Source: an uncultured Caryophanales bacterium
Lineage (GTDB): Bacteria; Bacillota_I; Bacilli_A; RFN20; CAG-449
Assembly (NCBI GenBank): GCA_945929875.1
Contig: CAMEOO010000006.1
Location: 1 to 49,328 of the forward strand
Length of the DNA stretch: 49,328 nucleotides
Reading direction: 5' to 3'
Shown: one piece after another, positions 42,206-49,080 of the stretch
Layout: every line of letters starts with the position of its first letter
How positions within the stretch are numbered: the stretch's first letter is position 1
Program-made: the position numbers and the translations under genes
The notes under the pieces: model-generated
Seen by the model: the letters and a program-made list of their open reading frames with translations, nothing else
What the model was told of the DNA's origin: nothing
Database searches by the model: none

Positions 42206-43855
42206 TTAAAAGATCAAAGTGAATTTAGTCCCTTTATTTAGTTTACTTTCTAAGAATATTTTTATGTTGTTATTAATGCAAATGTGTTTGACGATCGCAA
42301 GTCCAAGTCCGGTCCCACCCATTTCTTTAGATTTAGCTTTATCAACTTGATAAAATCTTTCAAAGACTCTAGTTTGATCTTCTTCAGATATGCCAATTCC
42401 AGAATCTTCAATTATTAGAGATTTATTTTGCTTATTGATAGAAATAACGATTCTTCCTTCTTTTTTATTATATTTAATCGCGTTTTCAATTAAGTTTTTA
42501 ACTAATTCGTATAAATCTTCCCGATTAATATAAATAGATAAATCTGTATAGTATGTTTCTACTTTAATATTTTTTTCTTCAATTAGTTGAGAGTAGCTGT
42601 TTAGTACTTCTTGACATATTTGATATAAGAGAATATTTTCCTTATCTAATTTTATTTGTGTTTCTAATTTTGATAATTCAAGCATTTCAATGATAATTTG
42701 ATTCATTCTTTTAGCTTCTCTAATAGTTTTAGTGGTCGCGGATTCAATTTCTTCTTCGTCGGTGATAATCCCCTCTTTAATCATTTGTTGATATCCAATG
42801 ATGGATGTCAAAGGGCTTTTTAGTTCATGAGAAGCATTTGCGAAAAAGTCTTCTTTCATCTTTTCAATTTTCTTTTCACTAGTGATATTCATAGCAACAA
42901 GAGAAATAGAAAAATCAAATTCTTCATTATCAAAAATGGAAATATTTAATAAATATGTTTCGTTCTTAAATGCATATAAATATCTTGCTTCTTGCTTATT
43001 TTCATACACTTTATTTATAATTTGAATCAACTCGCCAGAAAATAAATAAGAATAATCATTATTTATTACCATTTCATAGGACCGTTCAAAGATATCGCAC
43101 GCTTTTAAATTAATTAATACAATTTTTTTATTTTTATCGATAACAACAAGTGGTTGCTCCATATGATTGATTATGTGATTTAGTTTTCTTTTTTCAAGAT
43201 CGATAGTTTCAATTTTTGAATTGATCAAAGATCTTACTTTTTCAATTTCTTCTTCTAGTTTTGTGATGTTATCTTTATAGTCATTTACATCATCATCAAC
43301 AATTTTTGCAAGGGAATTAACGCTGTCGTTAATTGGCTTTAAGATTTTATTTGAAGTTTTTACAATTGCAATAATTGAAGCTAAAGATAAAACCACTAAA
43401 AGGATGCTACCATAAAGAATCAATGAATTAGTCACTTCATTAACGAGAGTCTCCGCCATGGAGATTCGGATGTATACATTATTTTCAAACCCAGCGATAT
43501 ATACCATTTTCTTTTTTAAGGTATTTGAATAACGATAATATATATTTCCCAAATTTTTAAGTTCAGGACGAGATAAATGGTTTTCTTCACTTTCTTTTTT
43601 ACTGTCGTAAAGAACATTTCCTTCCGGAGAAATAAAAGTGATTCTAATCGAAGAGTCGACTAAATAAATCTCATTCGCGGATTCTTCGTAATTATTTCCA
43701 TCAAAATGATTTTCTACGATATATAAATAATTGGTTATTTCTTTTTTTACCTTATCTTTATTAATTGAATCCACGATTAAAAAAGAAGCTATTAAAAAAG
43801 TTAGCATCGTAAATAATAAAATAATGGTATTAATTAATATATATTTTTTCTTCAT
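42206..43855 (-). CDS. phoR: Sensor histidine kinase PhoR
   Basis: 549 residues. TM1 (~7-28), an extracytoplasmic sensor (~30-145), TM2 (~147-168), a HAMP-like/coiled region, a PAS domain (~225-325, LVVIDKNKKIVLIN), then the kinase: H-box NASHELKSPLTS (~343), N-box NLIENAIKYN, G1 DSGIGI, F-box RVFERFY, G2 GGTGLGLAIVKH. This is the PhoR layout of Bacillota; it phosphorylates PhoP under phosphate limitation. Its ATG overlaps the phoP stop by four bases (ATGA). It is the last gene of the pst-pho operon; no good terminator follows. Confidence 0.92.
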   Translation of the reverse strand: MKKKYILINTIILLFTMLTFLIASFLIVDSINKDKVKKEITNYLYIVENHFDGNNYEESANEIYLVDSSIRITFISPEGNVLYDSKKESEENHLSRPELKNLGNIYYRYSNTLKKKMVYIAGFENNVYIRISMAETLVNEVTNSLILYGSILLVVLSLASIIAIVKTSNKILKPINDSVNSLAKIVDDDVNDYKDNITKLEEEIEKVRSLINSKIETIDLEKRKLNHIINHMEQPLVVIDKNKKIVLINLKACDIFERSYEMVINNDYSYLFSGELIQIINKVYENKQEARYLYAFKNETYLLNISIFDNEEFDFSISLVAMNITSEKKIEKMKEDFFANASHELKSPLTSIIGYQQMIKEGIITDEEEIESATTKTIREAKRMNQIIIEMLELSKLETQIKLDKENILLYQICQEVLNSYSQLIEEKNIKVETYYTDLSIYINREDLYELVKNLIENAIKYNKKEGRIVISINKQNKSLIIEDSGIGISEEDQTRVFERFYQVDKAKSKEMGGTGLGLAIVKHICINNNIKIFLESKLNKGTKFTLIF

Positions 43856-44517
43856 ATCTTAATTTTATAGCCTACCCCGTGAACTGTTTGAATAATTCCT
43901 TCGTTTTCACATTTTTGTCTAATTGACTTAATATGCATATCTACAGTTCTACTTTGATAAGAGGAAGATTCTCCCCAAAGAGTTTCTAGTATCGTATCTC
44001 TTGATACGACTTCATTAACATTTTCTAAAAGAAGTTTCATTATTTCAAATTCTTTATTAGTTAAATCGATTAACTTATTTCTATAAGTAAAAGTATGTTT
44101 ATTAACATCTAATTCCATATCTTCCACTTTGAAGATATCTTTCTTTTTGAATCTTCTAAAATGAGCGTTAACTCTCGACATTAATTCTAAGATATCAAAT
44201 GGTTTTTCAATATAATCATCCGCGCCTAAATCTAATCCTTCAACTTTATCAAGAACCATTCTATTCGCGGAAATGATAATAATTGGAACATTATCGTATA
44301 TTGAATTAGATCTTAGCATTTGAAGGACTTCTCTACCAGGAATATCAGGTAGCATCATGTCTAGAAGAATCATATTAGGAATTTTTTCTTGAATCCGTTT
44401 TAAAAATGAGGTGGAATCAAAAAATGATTCTACTTCATAACCTTGCTTAGTTAATGTTTTGTTAATAATTTTTGAAATATCTTTATCGTCTTCAAGAGAA
44501 TATATTGTAAGTGGCAT
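43852..44517 (-). CDS. phoP: Response regulator PhoP (OmpR family)
   Basis: 221 residues. Receiver domain: acidic pair SLEDDKD, phospho-acceptor Asp in ILLDMMLPD (~53), conserved Lys in DDYIEKPFD. C-terminal winged helix: LTNKEFEIMKLLLEN, RTVDMHIKSIRQK, VHGVGYKI. It should bind TTTACA-type repeats such as those upstream of pstS and activate this operon. RBS AAGGAGG, start 10 bases after phoU. Confidence 0.93.
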   Translation of the reverse strand: MPLTIYSLEDDKDISKIINKTLTKQGYEVESFFDSTSFLKRIQEKIPNMILLDMMLPDIPGREVLQMLRSNSIYDNVPIIIISANRMVLDKVEGLDLGADDYIEKPFDILELMSRVNAHFRRFKKKDIFKVEDMELDVNKHTFTYRNKLIDLTNKEFEIMKLLLENVNEVVSRDTILETLWGESSSYQSRTVDMHIKSIRQKCENEGIIQTVHGVGYKIKI

Positions 44518-44527
44518 ACTTCCTCCT

Positions 44528-45169
44528 TTAGAATATCATCTTATCCTTATGAAAACCGCTGGAAATATAGATAACCCATTCTGCAACATTTACAGCGTGG
44601 TCAGCAATTCTCTCTATATATTTTATCATTAATGTCATATAGATAGCAAAGGAAGGAACACAATTTCCTTTTTCTGTTTCATTAATTAAGTAAGATATTA
44701 TTTGATCGTAAGACTCATCGATAATATCGTCTTTTTTTATAACTTCACTTGCTAATTTATCATCTTTATTAACAAAGCTATTTACGGAGTCGTGGACCAT
44801 TTCAAGAGCTAAGTCGACTGTTGAATCAAAATTAGGGATTTCAATAGATTTCACTCCCACTAATTTTCTTGAAAAAGTAGCGATATCTTCTGCGTGATCA
44901 CCTAGTCTTTCTAAGTCTTCAACTAGTTTTAAAATTCCAGTGACTACTCTTAAATCTTTTGCGTATGGTCGTTCTTTAATCATGATATCTAAGCACATCT
45001 CTTCAATCAGTCTTTCGTGCATATCAACCACATCATCGTTGATTAACTCATATTTTTCTTCATCAAATTCCTTATATAATCCAATCGCATATTTTAAATT
45101 AGTCTCGACGACATCTGCCATTTTAAAGACCATTTGAGTTAAGTGTTCAATTTCTTTTTCTAATTTCAT
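44528..45169 (-). CDS. phoU: Phosphate signalling regulator PhoU
   Basis: 213 residues, all-helical, with two three-helix PhoU repeats and the acidic E/D..D motifs that bind metal clusters (LERLGDHAEDIATFSRK and IERIADHAVNVAEWVIYI). PhoU couples the Pst transporter to PhoR and damps the response when phosphate is plentiful. RBS AGGAG; 11 bases after pstB. Confidence 0.95.
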   Translation of the reverse strand: MKLEKEIEHLTQMVFKMADVVETNLKYAIGLYKEFDEEKYELINDDVVDMHERLIEEMCLDIMIKERPYAKDLRVVTGILKLVEDLERLGDHAEDIATFSRKLVGVKSIEIPNFDSTVDLALEMVHDSVNSFVNKDDKLASEVIKKDDIIDESYDQIISYLINETEKGNCVPSFAIYMTLMIKYIERIADHAVNVAEWVIYISSGFHKDKMIF

Positions 45170-45180
45170 AAATATTTCTC

Positions 45181-45939
45181 CTATCCAAATCTACCAGTAA
45201 TGTAATCTTCTGTCTTTTTATTCTTCGGATTTTTAAATAATTCTGAAGTTTCCCCATATTCAACGATTTCACCTAACATGAAAAATGCCGTGTAATCGCT
45301 AATTCTGGTTGCTTGTTGCATGTTGTGAGTAACGATAACTATCGTATATTCTTCTTTTAGTTTGTCGATCAATTCTTCGATTTTTAAAGTGGCAATTGGA
45401 TCTAATGCACTTGTTGGTTCATCCATCAAAATGACGTTTGGATGCATGGCGATGGCTCTTGCGATACATAGCCTTTGTTGCTGCCCTCCTGATAAAGATA
45501 AAGCAGAATCTTTTAATCGATCGGATATTTCATCATAAAGCGCCGCTTTTTTTAAAGAATCGATCACAATCTCTGAGAGAATTTTTTTATTTTTTATCCC
45601 TTGGCAACGTGGCCCATAAGCCACATTATCAAAAATAGACATTGGAAAAGGATTTGGATTTTGAAATACCATTCCTACATTTGTCCTTAAACTCATTGGA
45701 TTAAGAGAAAAAACATCGTTATCTATATAATTGATCGTTCCAGTAATCTTACAATTATCTATTAAGTCATTCATTCTATTTAAACATCTTAATAGAGTTG
45801 ATTTTCCACATCCCGAAGGCCCGATAAAAGCCGTAATCTTATTCTTATAGATATCTAAATTAACATCTTTTAAAACATGCTTTTCTCCATAAGATAAATT
45901 TAAATTTTCAATATGAAACACAATACTATTTTCACTCAT
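45181..45939 (-). CDS. pstB: Phosphate ABC transporter ATPase PstB
   Basis: 252 residues. Walker [21 protein letters not shown] is the hallmark of PstB, with Q-loop [21 protein letters not shown], signature LSGGQQQR, Walker [13 protein letters not shown] and switch IVTHNMQQA. Powers phosphate import through PstC/PstA. Start overlaps the pstA stop by four bases. RBS GAGGT. Confidence 0.97.
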
Positions 45940-47159
45940 GATTTTACCTCAAATCTATTTAGTTTTTTACTAACTAACTTTACTAAAACATTTAATACCA
46001 AGACGATGATAATAATTAAAATACTAATTGCACACGCTTGTTCATAATTAGGGTTTTCACCAGAAAGCACGCTCCAAATATGAACTGCAAGAGTCGTTGA
46101 TGAACCAGTTAAGGAAATGCTATCTTTAATCGAGCTACCTATTGCAAAGATCAATGCGGCACTTTCCCCTATAATTCTACCAAGAGCAAGTAGAGTAGAA
46201 GTTAAAATCCCTGGAATAGAATTTGGAAGTATCACTTTCATAATCGTTTGAGTTTGACTTGCCCCTAAAGCTAAAGAAGCGTGAGTATATGATTTAGGTA
46301 TGGCTCTTAATGATTCTTCGCAAGTTCTAATAATTGTAGGAAGAAGCATAATAGTCATCGTTAAAGCACCTGAAATGATGTTTCCACCACTAGAAGAAGT
46401 CACACCATTTACAATTGGAATAAAGACGATAACTCCCACTAAACCAAAGATAATTGAAGGAATACCGCTAGTCATATCGATAAATGATCTAATTATTTTT
46501 GTCAGTTTGTTATCTTTAGCAAATTGACTTAAATAAAGAGAAGCAATTATTCCAAGAGGTAGAGAAATAATTAAGGTCAAAAATATTAAATATAGCGTCG
46601 TAAGTAAAGATCCTCTTATTCCCCCACCCATAGTTGCATAATATAGTTCATTTATTTGATATGAATTATCTAATGCGTCAACGATAGCTTGAGAGCCATA
46701 TTTTGCGCTGATGATTGATCTTTCACCATTTGTATTAACCATTTGTATCCTTTTAATTATTTGGCCTTTTAGTACTAGTATTCTTTCATTAGTGTTTTGA
46801 TCTAAAGCGTTCTTTAATGGCGATAGATTATCAATATAAACAATTTTTACTACTGGATTGTTTTCTAAATCTTTAGAATCTTTTAACCCAATTCCCCACA
46901 CTTTTGAATAATAGATATCATTCCCATCTTCTAAAGAAAAAGTAAGCTCTTCATTAGTTTCACACTTTGCAAAATATGCTTCTTCATAATAATTTGAAGT
47001 GATAGTTTTCCATGATAAACTCTTAGCTCCATTTGAAAAAATAAAAGTTAATAACACAATTAAAATAACAATTCCAAAAGAAGAGAATATGTAGGTTATT
47101 CCATTTAATAAGATATCTTTAATTTTTCTTATTTTTAGTTTCTTTTCATTATTGTCCAT
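45936..47159 (-). CDS. pstA: Phosphate ABC transporter permease PstA with large extracytoplasmic insert
   Basis: 407 residues, about 110-120 longer than usual PstA (about 280-300). The extra part lies between TM1 (~20-43) and the permease core that begins near 175: residues ~48-170 are hydrophilic ([33 protein letters not shown]), so should lie outside the membrane. The core is normal: helices, then [20 protein letters not shown] (the EAA loop that contacts PstB) and [15 protein letters not shown]. It overlaps pstC by 11 bases. The insert may contact the unusual PstS. Confidence 0.93.
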
Positions 47160-48096
47160 AACGTTTACCGATTCTATTATTTATGAAATTTAAAAGGAAA
47201 TTAGTGACTAAAATTATTATAATCAATAACACTCCTACGCTAAACCTAATATCGTAATCTAACCCAGAAGTTTCGTGGATAGAATTAAGCATTGTCGAGG
47301 TCAAGGTTCTAGTTATATCAAAAGGATTAAAGCTAGGTCCTGATCCAGCATTACCACAAACCATGCTAACTGCTGTTGCTTCTCCAAGAGCTCTTCCTAC
47401 TCCAAGAATGATTCCAGAAAAAATACCTGATCTAGCACTGGTTAACACTACTTTAAAATTTGTTTGAGTTTTACTTGCGCCTAAAGCTAAAGAACCTTCA
47501 ATAAATTTCTTGTCAACAGCGTTTATTGAAGTGTTAGAGACCATCGTAATTGTAGGTATAATCATTATTGCTAAAACAATTGCCGCGGATAAACTAGATA
47601 TTCCACCTGCACTTTGATAGTTGAATAAAGATGATAAATTTTTTACAAATTTAGTAATTATTCCCATTCCAAATAGGCCAAATATTACCGAAGGAATACT
47701 AGCTAATATTTCTATGGCATAATTTAATACCTTCGATATTTTTTTAGGGGCTATTTTACATATAAATAAACTAGATAAAATCGATACTGGAATTGCAATA
47801 ACTAAAGCCATAAGAGTGACAAAAATAGTATTGATTATAACAAAGCCAGCGCCATAATTATTTGGGCTAACAAACCAAGTAGTTCCAAATAAGAATTTAA
47901 AAAAATTAACGCTATAAGATCCTTCACCAATTTGATATTTTTTAACAAAAGGAGTTATACCTTTAATTAGAATAAAGAATGTAATAAAAACTATTATAGA
48001 AGCGCAAAAAATAGTAATTGCCATGAAAATTAGCCTTACTATTTTATCTTGCATAGTTTTTCTTTTTATTCTTTTATTAGTTGAATCACTATTCAT
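47149..48096 (-). CDS. pstC: Phosphate ABC transporter permease PstC
   Basis: 315 residues with six helices. PstC-type segments: TTWFVSPNNYGAGFVIINT, IPVSILSSLFI, LASIPSVIFGLFG, EAA loop GASKTQTNFKVVLTSARSGI, and GRALGEATAVSMVCGN. It forms the membrane channel with PstA. It starts five bases after pstS. Confidence 0.95.
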   Translation of the reverse strand: MNSDSTNKRIKRKTMQDKIVRLIFMAITIFCASIIVFITFFILIKGITPFVKKYQIGEGSYSVNFFKFLFGTTWFVSPNNYGAGFVIINTIFVTLMALVIAIPVSILSSLFICKIAPKKISKVLNYAIEILASIPSVIFGLFGMGIITKFVKNLSSLFNYQSAGGISSLSAAIVLAIMIIPTITMVSNTSINAVDKKFIEGSLALGASKTQTNFKVVLTSARSGIFSGIILGVGRALGEATAVSMVCGNAGSGPSFNPFDITRTLTSTMLNSIHETSGLDYDIRFSVGVLLIIIILVTNFLLNFINNRIGKRYGQ

Positions 48097-48101
48097 AAAA
48101 T

Positions 48102-49022
48102 TTACTTAACTTCGCTCCATTTTGTATAGGTTCCATCGTAAATTTTCTTTAATTGATCTTTAGTAATAGAGTTTATACTATTTGATTTATTTACTACCGC
48201 GACAATTGCATCAATGCACATTTTACCTTTTAAAGACTCATCCATTGGTTCAGAATCATTTTTAAATTCTCTTGAAGCAAAAGCTAAATCGCATGCGTTT
48301 ACTCCATCTTTTTCGCTACCATTAGTTCTTTTGTATGCATCTCCTGAACCAGTAGGATTATGTTCATAAACAAAGTTTCCACATTTTGCAGAAAATTCAT
48401 TTAACAAATTAGAAACGATGCTTTTAACTGAAGTAGATCCTCCAACAACTATAGTAACTTTACTATTGTCTTTGCTTGCAATATCATAGTTATCTTTTAT
48501 TTCTTCCCATGATTTATCGCTATTACTATTTTCTACAATTCCCCCGTGTTCTTGAATTGTAGATTTTCCTTCAATAGTTCCCATGTAAGAGATAAACGCT
48601 TCTACGATTTCTTTTTTAGCTACATCGGAATAACTTTCTCTTATACAATAATTAAAGTTTCTTGTTAATTGATAAGTTCCATTTAGAACGTTTTCTTCAC
48701 TAGGAACAACACCTTCATATGTTAACCCTTTTAAAGATGATTCCTTTAATGAAGAAAGAGAAATGTAACCGATTCCGTTTTCATCTTGTTTTACTCCGCT
48801 GATCATCGTATCATTTCCAGATACTTCAACATAACCTTTCGCTAATAAAGAATTGTCCTTCTTTGCGTCATTAAATCCAATTCCTTCAAAAAAACCTTCT
48901 CTTGTTCCACTAGTAGTGTCTCTTGTATAAACCTTAATTAGTGCTTCTTTATTACATGAGCCCATCGTTAAGAATAATCCTAATGAGCAGCCTAGCATTA
49001 AGATATTTTTTATTTTTTTCAT
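48102..49022 (-). CDS. pstS: Phosphate-binding lipoprotein PstS, domain halves in permuted order
   Basis: 306 residues from ATG 49022 (RBS GGAGG). Signal peptide with lipobox TMGSC; Cys23 anchors it outside. In ordinary PstS the order is GST..., SR, VVVN, ITNW, then R..SGTR.AF and a closing helix. Here residues ~30-165 carry the usual second half first (YTRDTTSGTREGFFEG, GYISLSSL, FISYMGTIEGKSTI). Residues ~188-306 carry the usual first half last (VVGGSTSVKSIV, FASREFK, IVAVVNKSNSI, IYDGTYTKWSEV). The motifs are intact, so phosphate binding is likely, but the chain appears circularly permuted. It heads the pst-pho operon. Confidence 0.9.
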   Translation of the reverse strand: MKKIKNILMLGCSLGLFLTMGSCNKEALIKVYTRDTTSGTREGFFEGIGFNDAKKDNSLLAKGYVEVSGNDTMISGVKQDENGIGYISLSSLKESSLKGLTYEGVVPSEENVLNGTYQLTRNFNYCIRESYSDVAKKEIVEAFISYMGTIEGKSTIQEHGGIVENSNSDKSWEEIKDNYDIASKDNSKVTIVVGGSTSVKSIVSNLLNEFSAKCGNFVYEHNPTGSGDAYKRTNGSEKDGVNACDLAFASREFKNDSEPMDESLKGKMCIDAIVAVVNKSNSINSITKDQLKKIYDGTYTKWSEVK

Positions 49023-49080
49023 TTTAATTTCCTCCATCGACACATAAATTTTAATACGAATAAAAAAAATAAATCCTACA

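Follow-up and report, generated by a model that had tools for sequence, protein, structure and literature searches.

The window analysed here, a stretch of 49,328 nucleotides from an uncultured Caryophanales gut bacterium (contig CAMEOO010000006.1), carries a pst operon whose first gene raises a question of topology. An earlier note had read the sequence motifs of its product, the phosphate-binding protein PstS, in reversed half order; is this protein a circularly permuted PstS, or does the order reflect a faulty assembly or a member of another family? The analysis showed that the window PstS is a genuine circular permutant, and that this variant of a known family is widespread but has drawn little notice.

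Gene content and layout of the pst locus

The genes of the locus and the parts of pstS and pstA discussed below are as follows.

48102..49022, minus strand: pstS, circularly permuted phosphate-binding lipoprotein, 306 aa from the ATG (profiles, PDB alignment, AlphaFold model)
48957..49022, minus strand: pstS, signal peptide up to the lipobox LTMGS (sequence)
48954..48956, minus strand: pstS, predicted lipidated cysteine, Cys24 when 307 codons are counted (the Cys is invariant among 20 relatives)
48531..48944, minus strand: pstS, canonical second half placed first, residues 28-165 (TIGR02136 profile 160-291 against residues 26-161)
48456..48530, minus strand: pstS, new linker between the former C-terminus and the former N-terminus, residues 166-190 (between the two matched halves)
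48105..48455, minus strand: pstS, canonical first half placed last, residues 191-307 (PF12849 profile 10-125 against residues 190-305)
47149..48096, minus strand: pstC, permease (TIGR02138, 231 bits, cut-off 196)
45936..47159, minus strand: pstA, permease of 407 aa with an extra extracytoplasmic domain (TIGR00974, 211.6 bits, cut-off 193; length comparison)
46626..47006, minus strand: PDZ-like domain after the first transmembrane segment (TM1) of PstA, residues 52-178 (alignment, AF2, Foldseek)
45181..45939, minus strand: pstB, ATPase (TIGR00972, 410.8 bits)
44528..45169, minus strand: phoU (TIGR02135, 161 bits, cut-off 130)
43852..44517, minus strand: phoB-like response regulator (TIGR02154, 178.9 bits, below cut-off)
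42206..43855, minus strand: phoR/pnpS-like histidine kinase (NF046044 PnpS, 279 bits, below cut-off)

The gene order is thus pstS-pstC-pstA-pstB-phoU, followed by the genes of the PhoB-like regulator and the PhoR/PnpS-like kinase; pstB, like pstC, pstA and phoU, scored above its curated cut-off. The pstS open reading frame comprises 307 codons from position 49025 on the minus strand, with an ATG at 49022 after GGAGG and a stop codon at 48104-48102. It is intact, encodes a lipoprotein signal with the lipobox LTMGSC and heads the operon, as the earlier note had stated. All of the motifs named in that note could be located in the claimed order: RDTTSGTREGFF and GYISLSSL are followed by GGSTSVKS, FASREFK, VVNKSNS and finally YTKWSEVK, which directly precedes the stop codon. 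Residues 28-165 contain the ligands R35, S39, G40 and T41, the GYISLSSL block and the C-terminal helix of a normal PstS, while residues 191-307 contain the ligands S197, T198, S227 and D246. Past the position of YTKWSEVK, where the window protein ends, normal PstS chains enter their second half within 7-8 residues. The counterpart of the new linker has a length of 15-33 residues in relatives.

Circular permutation of PstS

Profile and PDB searches were performed with the window PstS, and repeated after its halves had been rejoined in silico in the normal order. Both TIGR02136 (113.9 bits) and PF12849 (86.9 bits, cut-off 27) match the native protein as two stretches in swapped order, and both halves of the PBP_like_2/TIGR02136 domain are present. 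The canonical PDB chains 1twy, 4q8r and 4gd5 likewise align in two pieces whose order is swapped; 4h1x is instead co-linear with the window PstS over residues 28-307. The un-permuted sequence gave single full-length canonical matches, with scores rising from 72.8 to 89.3 bits for 1twy, from 66.9 to 84.5 for 4q8r and from 86.9 to 102.9 for PF12849; the match to 4h1x shrank to one half. One PstS match only was found in the genome of the window, so there is no second copy completing the gene, and no second PstS domain was found within the chain. A second domain completing either half was what the earlier note had named as contrary evidence.

The window PstS remains below the curated TIGR02136 cut-off of 206.6 bits both as it is and when un-permuted (128.7 bits). 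The idea that the half order alone accounts for the missed annotation was therefore rejected; divergence is the larger cause and order the lesser.

Structure and phosphate site

A model of the window PstS was built with AlphaFold2 from 20 permuted relatives (mean pLDDT 92.3). Compared with the PDB, its only strong sequential match was 4h1x (SP_2084, released 2012), with an E-value of 1e-24, a TM-score of 0.87 (target) and an rmsd of 3.0 over 283 columns. This match is sequential over the full length, while canonical structures match by halves, as with 1twy, for which only 148 columns in one half could be aligned. The structural comparison thus gave no sign of a normal order, and together with the profiles and the un-permutation test it bears out the circular permutation that the earlier note had proposed. 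The permuted topology is already present in a solved structure, 4H1X.

The phosphate ligands of E. coli PstS, which we take to be T10, S38, D56, R135, S139, G140 and T141, all have equivalents in the window PstS (S197, S227, D246, R35, S39, G40 and T41, respectively). In an alignment of 74 permuted with 33 canonical units, the columns of R35, S39, G40, S197 and S227 are invariant and that of T41 is nearly so. The equivalent of D56 is Asp in the window; roughly half of its permuted relatives have H, M, T, A or Q at this position, so that affinity or specificity may vary among them. Counted by unit, this column holds Asp in 35 of the 74 permuted units and His in 19. The His variant may have an altered phosphate selectivity.

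An artefact (mis-assembly, a chimera, or half a gene whose missing part another PstS supplies) could be suspected because the window comes from a draft assembly and pstS is close to the end of its contig. However, the same order occurs in over 100 independent loci, complete genomes included, the crystal structure 4H1X shares it, and the single PstS of the genome has both halves complete; this candidate was rejected and deserves practically no credence. It is also very improbable that the protein is a binding protein of another type with a different native topology, for example OpuAC-like. OpuAC chains do rank directly after 4h1x among the structural matches, but with a TM-score of about 0.4 and an rmsd of 8-9, while every sequence match is a PstS, the phosphate ligands are conserved and the gene heads a pst-phoU operon.

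A working, circularly permuted PstS is the preferred reading, and we hold it to be highly probable that such a protein is exported, lipidated, takes the usual fold, hands over phosphate and arose by duplication and trimming. It would be exported and lipidated on Cys24 and would adopt the two-lobed fold normal for phosphate-binding proteins, its ligand residues unchanged. The conserved ligands and the operon context point to phosphate binding and transport by the window PstS, which would pass phosphate to PstCAB, with signalling through PhoU/PhoBR. In canonical PstS both termini lie in lobe I and the link between the halves lies in lobe II. The old termini would be joined in lobe I by the linker of about 25 residues and the new termini would lie in the former 7-residue inter-half link in lobe II, so that the anchor changes lobe. 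From the known PstS topology we infer that the lipid anchor would now hold lobe II.

Distribution among bacteria

Of 395 genomes sampled from the class to which the window belongs, about 114 proved to have a permuted PstS, with Anaeroplasma, Acholeplasma laidlawii, Izemoplasma and Peloplasma among the named hosts; a scan of the phylum gave the same class only. Two cases outside Bacilli, both taken from plasmid records, are Monoglobus pectinilyticus (Clostridia) and Treponema saccharophilum (Spirochaetota); their genes bear no annotation beyond 'substrate-binding domain-containing protein'. The permuted pst operon on the Treponema plasmid and that of the Monoglobus record (L197 and L196) fall in the group of permuted loci with a short PstA; horizontal transfer of these operons is likely. 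Both PstS forms occur together in some genomes, as in G215 (loci L062 and L063), and for S. pneumoniae structures of both PstS1 and PstS2 exist. The occurrence of pst is uneven in the genus of the window: a PstS match was found in only two of eight genomes, although several of the others are about 95% complete.

The suggestion of the earlier note that this is a lineage-wide variant, seldom remarked on, agrees with these numbers. In a literature search without most subscription journals, neither a paper describing permuted PstS nor one mentioning 4H1X was found, and the rearrangement is apparently undescribed.

Tandem and re-permuted forms

Among 197 domain-bearing ORFs, counts that include some loci fetched twice, 151 have the halves in the order C-N and 31 in the order N-C, while nine are CNCN, three are CNCNCN and one has the canonical C-terminal end in front of N-C. 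Tandem PstS proteins in which two or three permuted units are fused (L034, L035, L036, L037, L038, L039 and L156) occur in several families. Their units are 80-97% identical, which makes the fusions recent, and the link from the first N half to the second C half has 10-22 residues, against 7-8 for the canonical link, which it resembles. A canonical precursor fused as N-C-N-C was not among the ORFs; canonical genes occurred only side by side (L056, L057, L158 and L207). In the complete genome of strain zrk7 a two-unit tandem pstS lies in overlapping frames (L136:6031-7840), a split due to a frameshift or a sequencing error.

A second circular permutant of PstS, found in a single genome (G212, L040:6846-7772), has its breakpoint before the C-terminal helix. 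The signal peptide is followed by the canonical C-terminal helix, the first half and the rest of the second half, and profile positions C 1-100 and 102-135 and N 1-113 are each covered exactly once. Aligned to the tandem protein L035 of genome G158, which is the only other genome of that genus with a match, it corresponds to one piece, residues 133-412, with 48% identity. The second permutant is thus apparently a slice of the tandem protein of its congener, as the model of permutation by duplication predicts.

By this model the window PstS would have been permuted when the gene was duplicated and the outer halves were then trimmed away, a process that may still be visible in the relatives with two- and three-unit fusions and one re-permuted protein. 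We infer that the original permutation event took the same duplication route.

PDZ-like domain of PstA

PstA is about 380-440 aa long in the clade of the window, against 271-310 aa in loci with canonical PstS, and alignment places the surplus of about 115 residues after TM1. The AF2 model of the insert (pLDDT 88.8) has the secondary-structure order of a PDZ domain, b1-b2-b3-aA-b4-b5-aB-b6. The first 17 Foldseek matches were all PDZ domains, with probabilities of 0.84-1.00, TM-scores (target) of up to 0.72 and E-values of 0.05 or worse. At the level of sequence families, PDZ_2 was matched with an E-value of 0.045 in two of 31 members, and a PDB profile search gave weak matches. No paper on a PDZ-like domain in PstA was found in the literature search. 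PstA proteins of about 505 aa (L116:2876-3574 and L195:5490-6179) carry an insert of about 230 residues that looks like two PDZ-like copies.

Permuted PstS accompanies PDZ-PstA in 104 of 105 genomes, the remaining one being cut by a contig end, and PDZ-PstA with a canonical PstS was never seen among the loci compared. With permuted PstS, 97 PstA proteins are long and nine are short; with canonical PstS none is long and 25 are short. The Fisher p-value for PstS order against PstA length (1e-19) is not counted as evidence of coupling, because the PDZ loci all belong to one clade. A C-terminal PDZ-ligand motif on the permuted PstS was considered and rejected, because the chain ends in different residues (K, E, A, L, Q and others).

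Origins of the permutation and possible coupling with PstA

Permuted loci with a long PstA lie on one side of a branch with a support of 88-90 in PstS trees and 98-99 in transporter trees; those with a short PstA form a single group in the transporter trees (support 97-98), and the PstS tree places 4H1X with this second kind, whose PstA lacks the PDZ-like domain. The permutation could have arisen in two separate events, both at the same link between the halves, one in the PDZ-PstA clade and the other in the clade of L068, Monoglobus and Treponema (with 4H1X by the PstS tree), and we give this a little less than an even chance. In its favour, trees of PstC, PstA and PstB separate the permuted groups by canonical loci, and a single permuted clade is rejected by the concatenated proteins without outgroups (p-AU 0.004; borderline at 0.06 with outgroups) and by PstB alone (p-AU 0.005). 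PstS (p-AU 0.34), PstA (0.22) and PstC (0.72, with one clade scoring higher), however, do not reject a single clade, and transfer of pstS between operons would account for the tree conflict.

An adaptive pairing, in which the PDZ-like domain of PstA co-evolved with permuted PstS as a dock for its re-anchored lobe II or its free C-terminus, appears unlikely. The strict company of PDZ-PstA with permuted PstS and the distribution of long and short PstA favour it. Every PDZ case lies in one clade, however, and may reflect a single coincidence; permuted PstS occurs without the domain in another clade, in Monoglobus and in Treponema, no conserved PDZ ligand motif is found at the PstS C-terminus, and a similar insert is also present in OppC permeases. 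The data therefore describe an association and are not proof of coupling. The OppC insert was observed in the extracytoplasmic loop of the oligopeptide permease in some Izemoplasma-like genomes (L200:6550-8145 and L201:5219-6793).

A broader picture, which we offer as a tentative one with odds of about one in three, would make PstS a recurrent permuter. Its inter-half linker would have been opened at the same place at least twice independently, tandems would recur, new permutants would be cut out of them and the anchor would switch lobes, with the PDZ-like domain of PstA perhaps an adaptation of the partner.

Comparison with known systems

The tandem fusions, the second permutant and the PDZ-like domain of PstA go beyond the earlier note, as does 4H1X, the crystal structure in which the permuted topology was already present. 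Natural circular permutations rarely come with clear homology of both parts, with intermediates that still exist and with a second product of re-cutting. As canonical, permuted, tandem and re-permuted forms occur in one receptor family for an essential nutrient, the duplication-and-trimming model is directly testable, as is the effect of anchor position on the docking of binding protein and transporter. Permuted PstS may also partly explain bare 'substrate-binding domain-containing protein' annotations.

The closest known system is PstS2 of S. pneumoniae (SP_2084, 4H1X), which shares with the window PstS the permuted order, the breakpoint, co-linearity of the whole chain and the fold. It differs in being about 26% identical and in grouping with loci whose short PstA has no PDZ-like domain. 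Pst2, the system of SP_2084, is reported to be an active Pi transporter (PMC4913102). Canonical PstS proteins (1TWY, 4Q8R and pneumococcal PstS1, 4EXL) have the same halves, ligands and operon, but the halves stand in the opposite order and, by known topology, the termini lie in lobe I.

Two further cases come from other binding proteins. OpuAC and ProX form a circular permutation pair (PMC2395249) in which, as with the window PstS, the chain is permuted while the overall fold of the binding protein stays alike; unlike the window PstS, they bind another ligand and their relation, at less than 24% identity, was detected by structure only. MglB-2 of Treponema pallidum (Tp0684), a circularly permuted sugar-binding protein (PMC4990184), is likewise a naturally permuted, lipid-anchored binding protein, and it retains function. 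It has a Type I fold, another ligand and another breakpoint, and the permuted part was found by its authors to be poorly conserved in sequence (PMC4990184), whereas both halves of the window PstS are clearly homologous to canonical PstS. With permuted PstS, the proposal made for TpMglB-2 (PMC4990184) that a permuted topology is suited to a tethered binding protein gains a Type II case.
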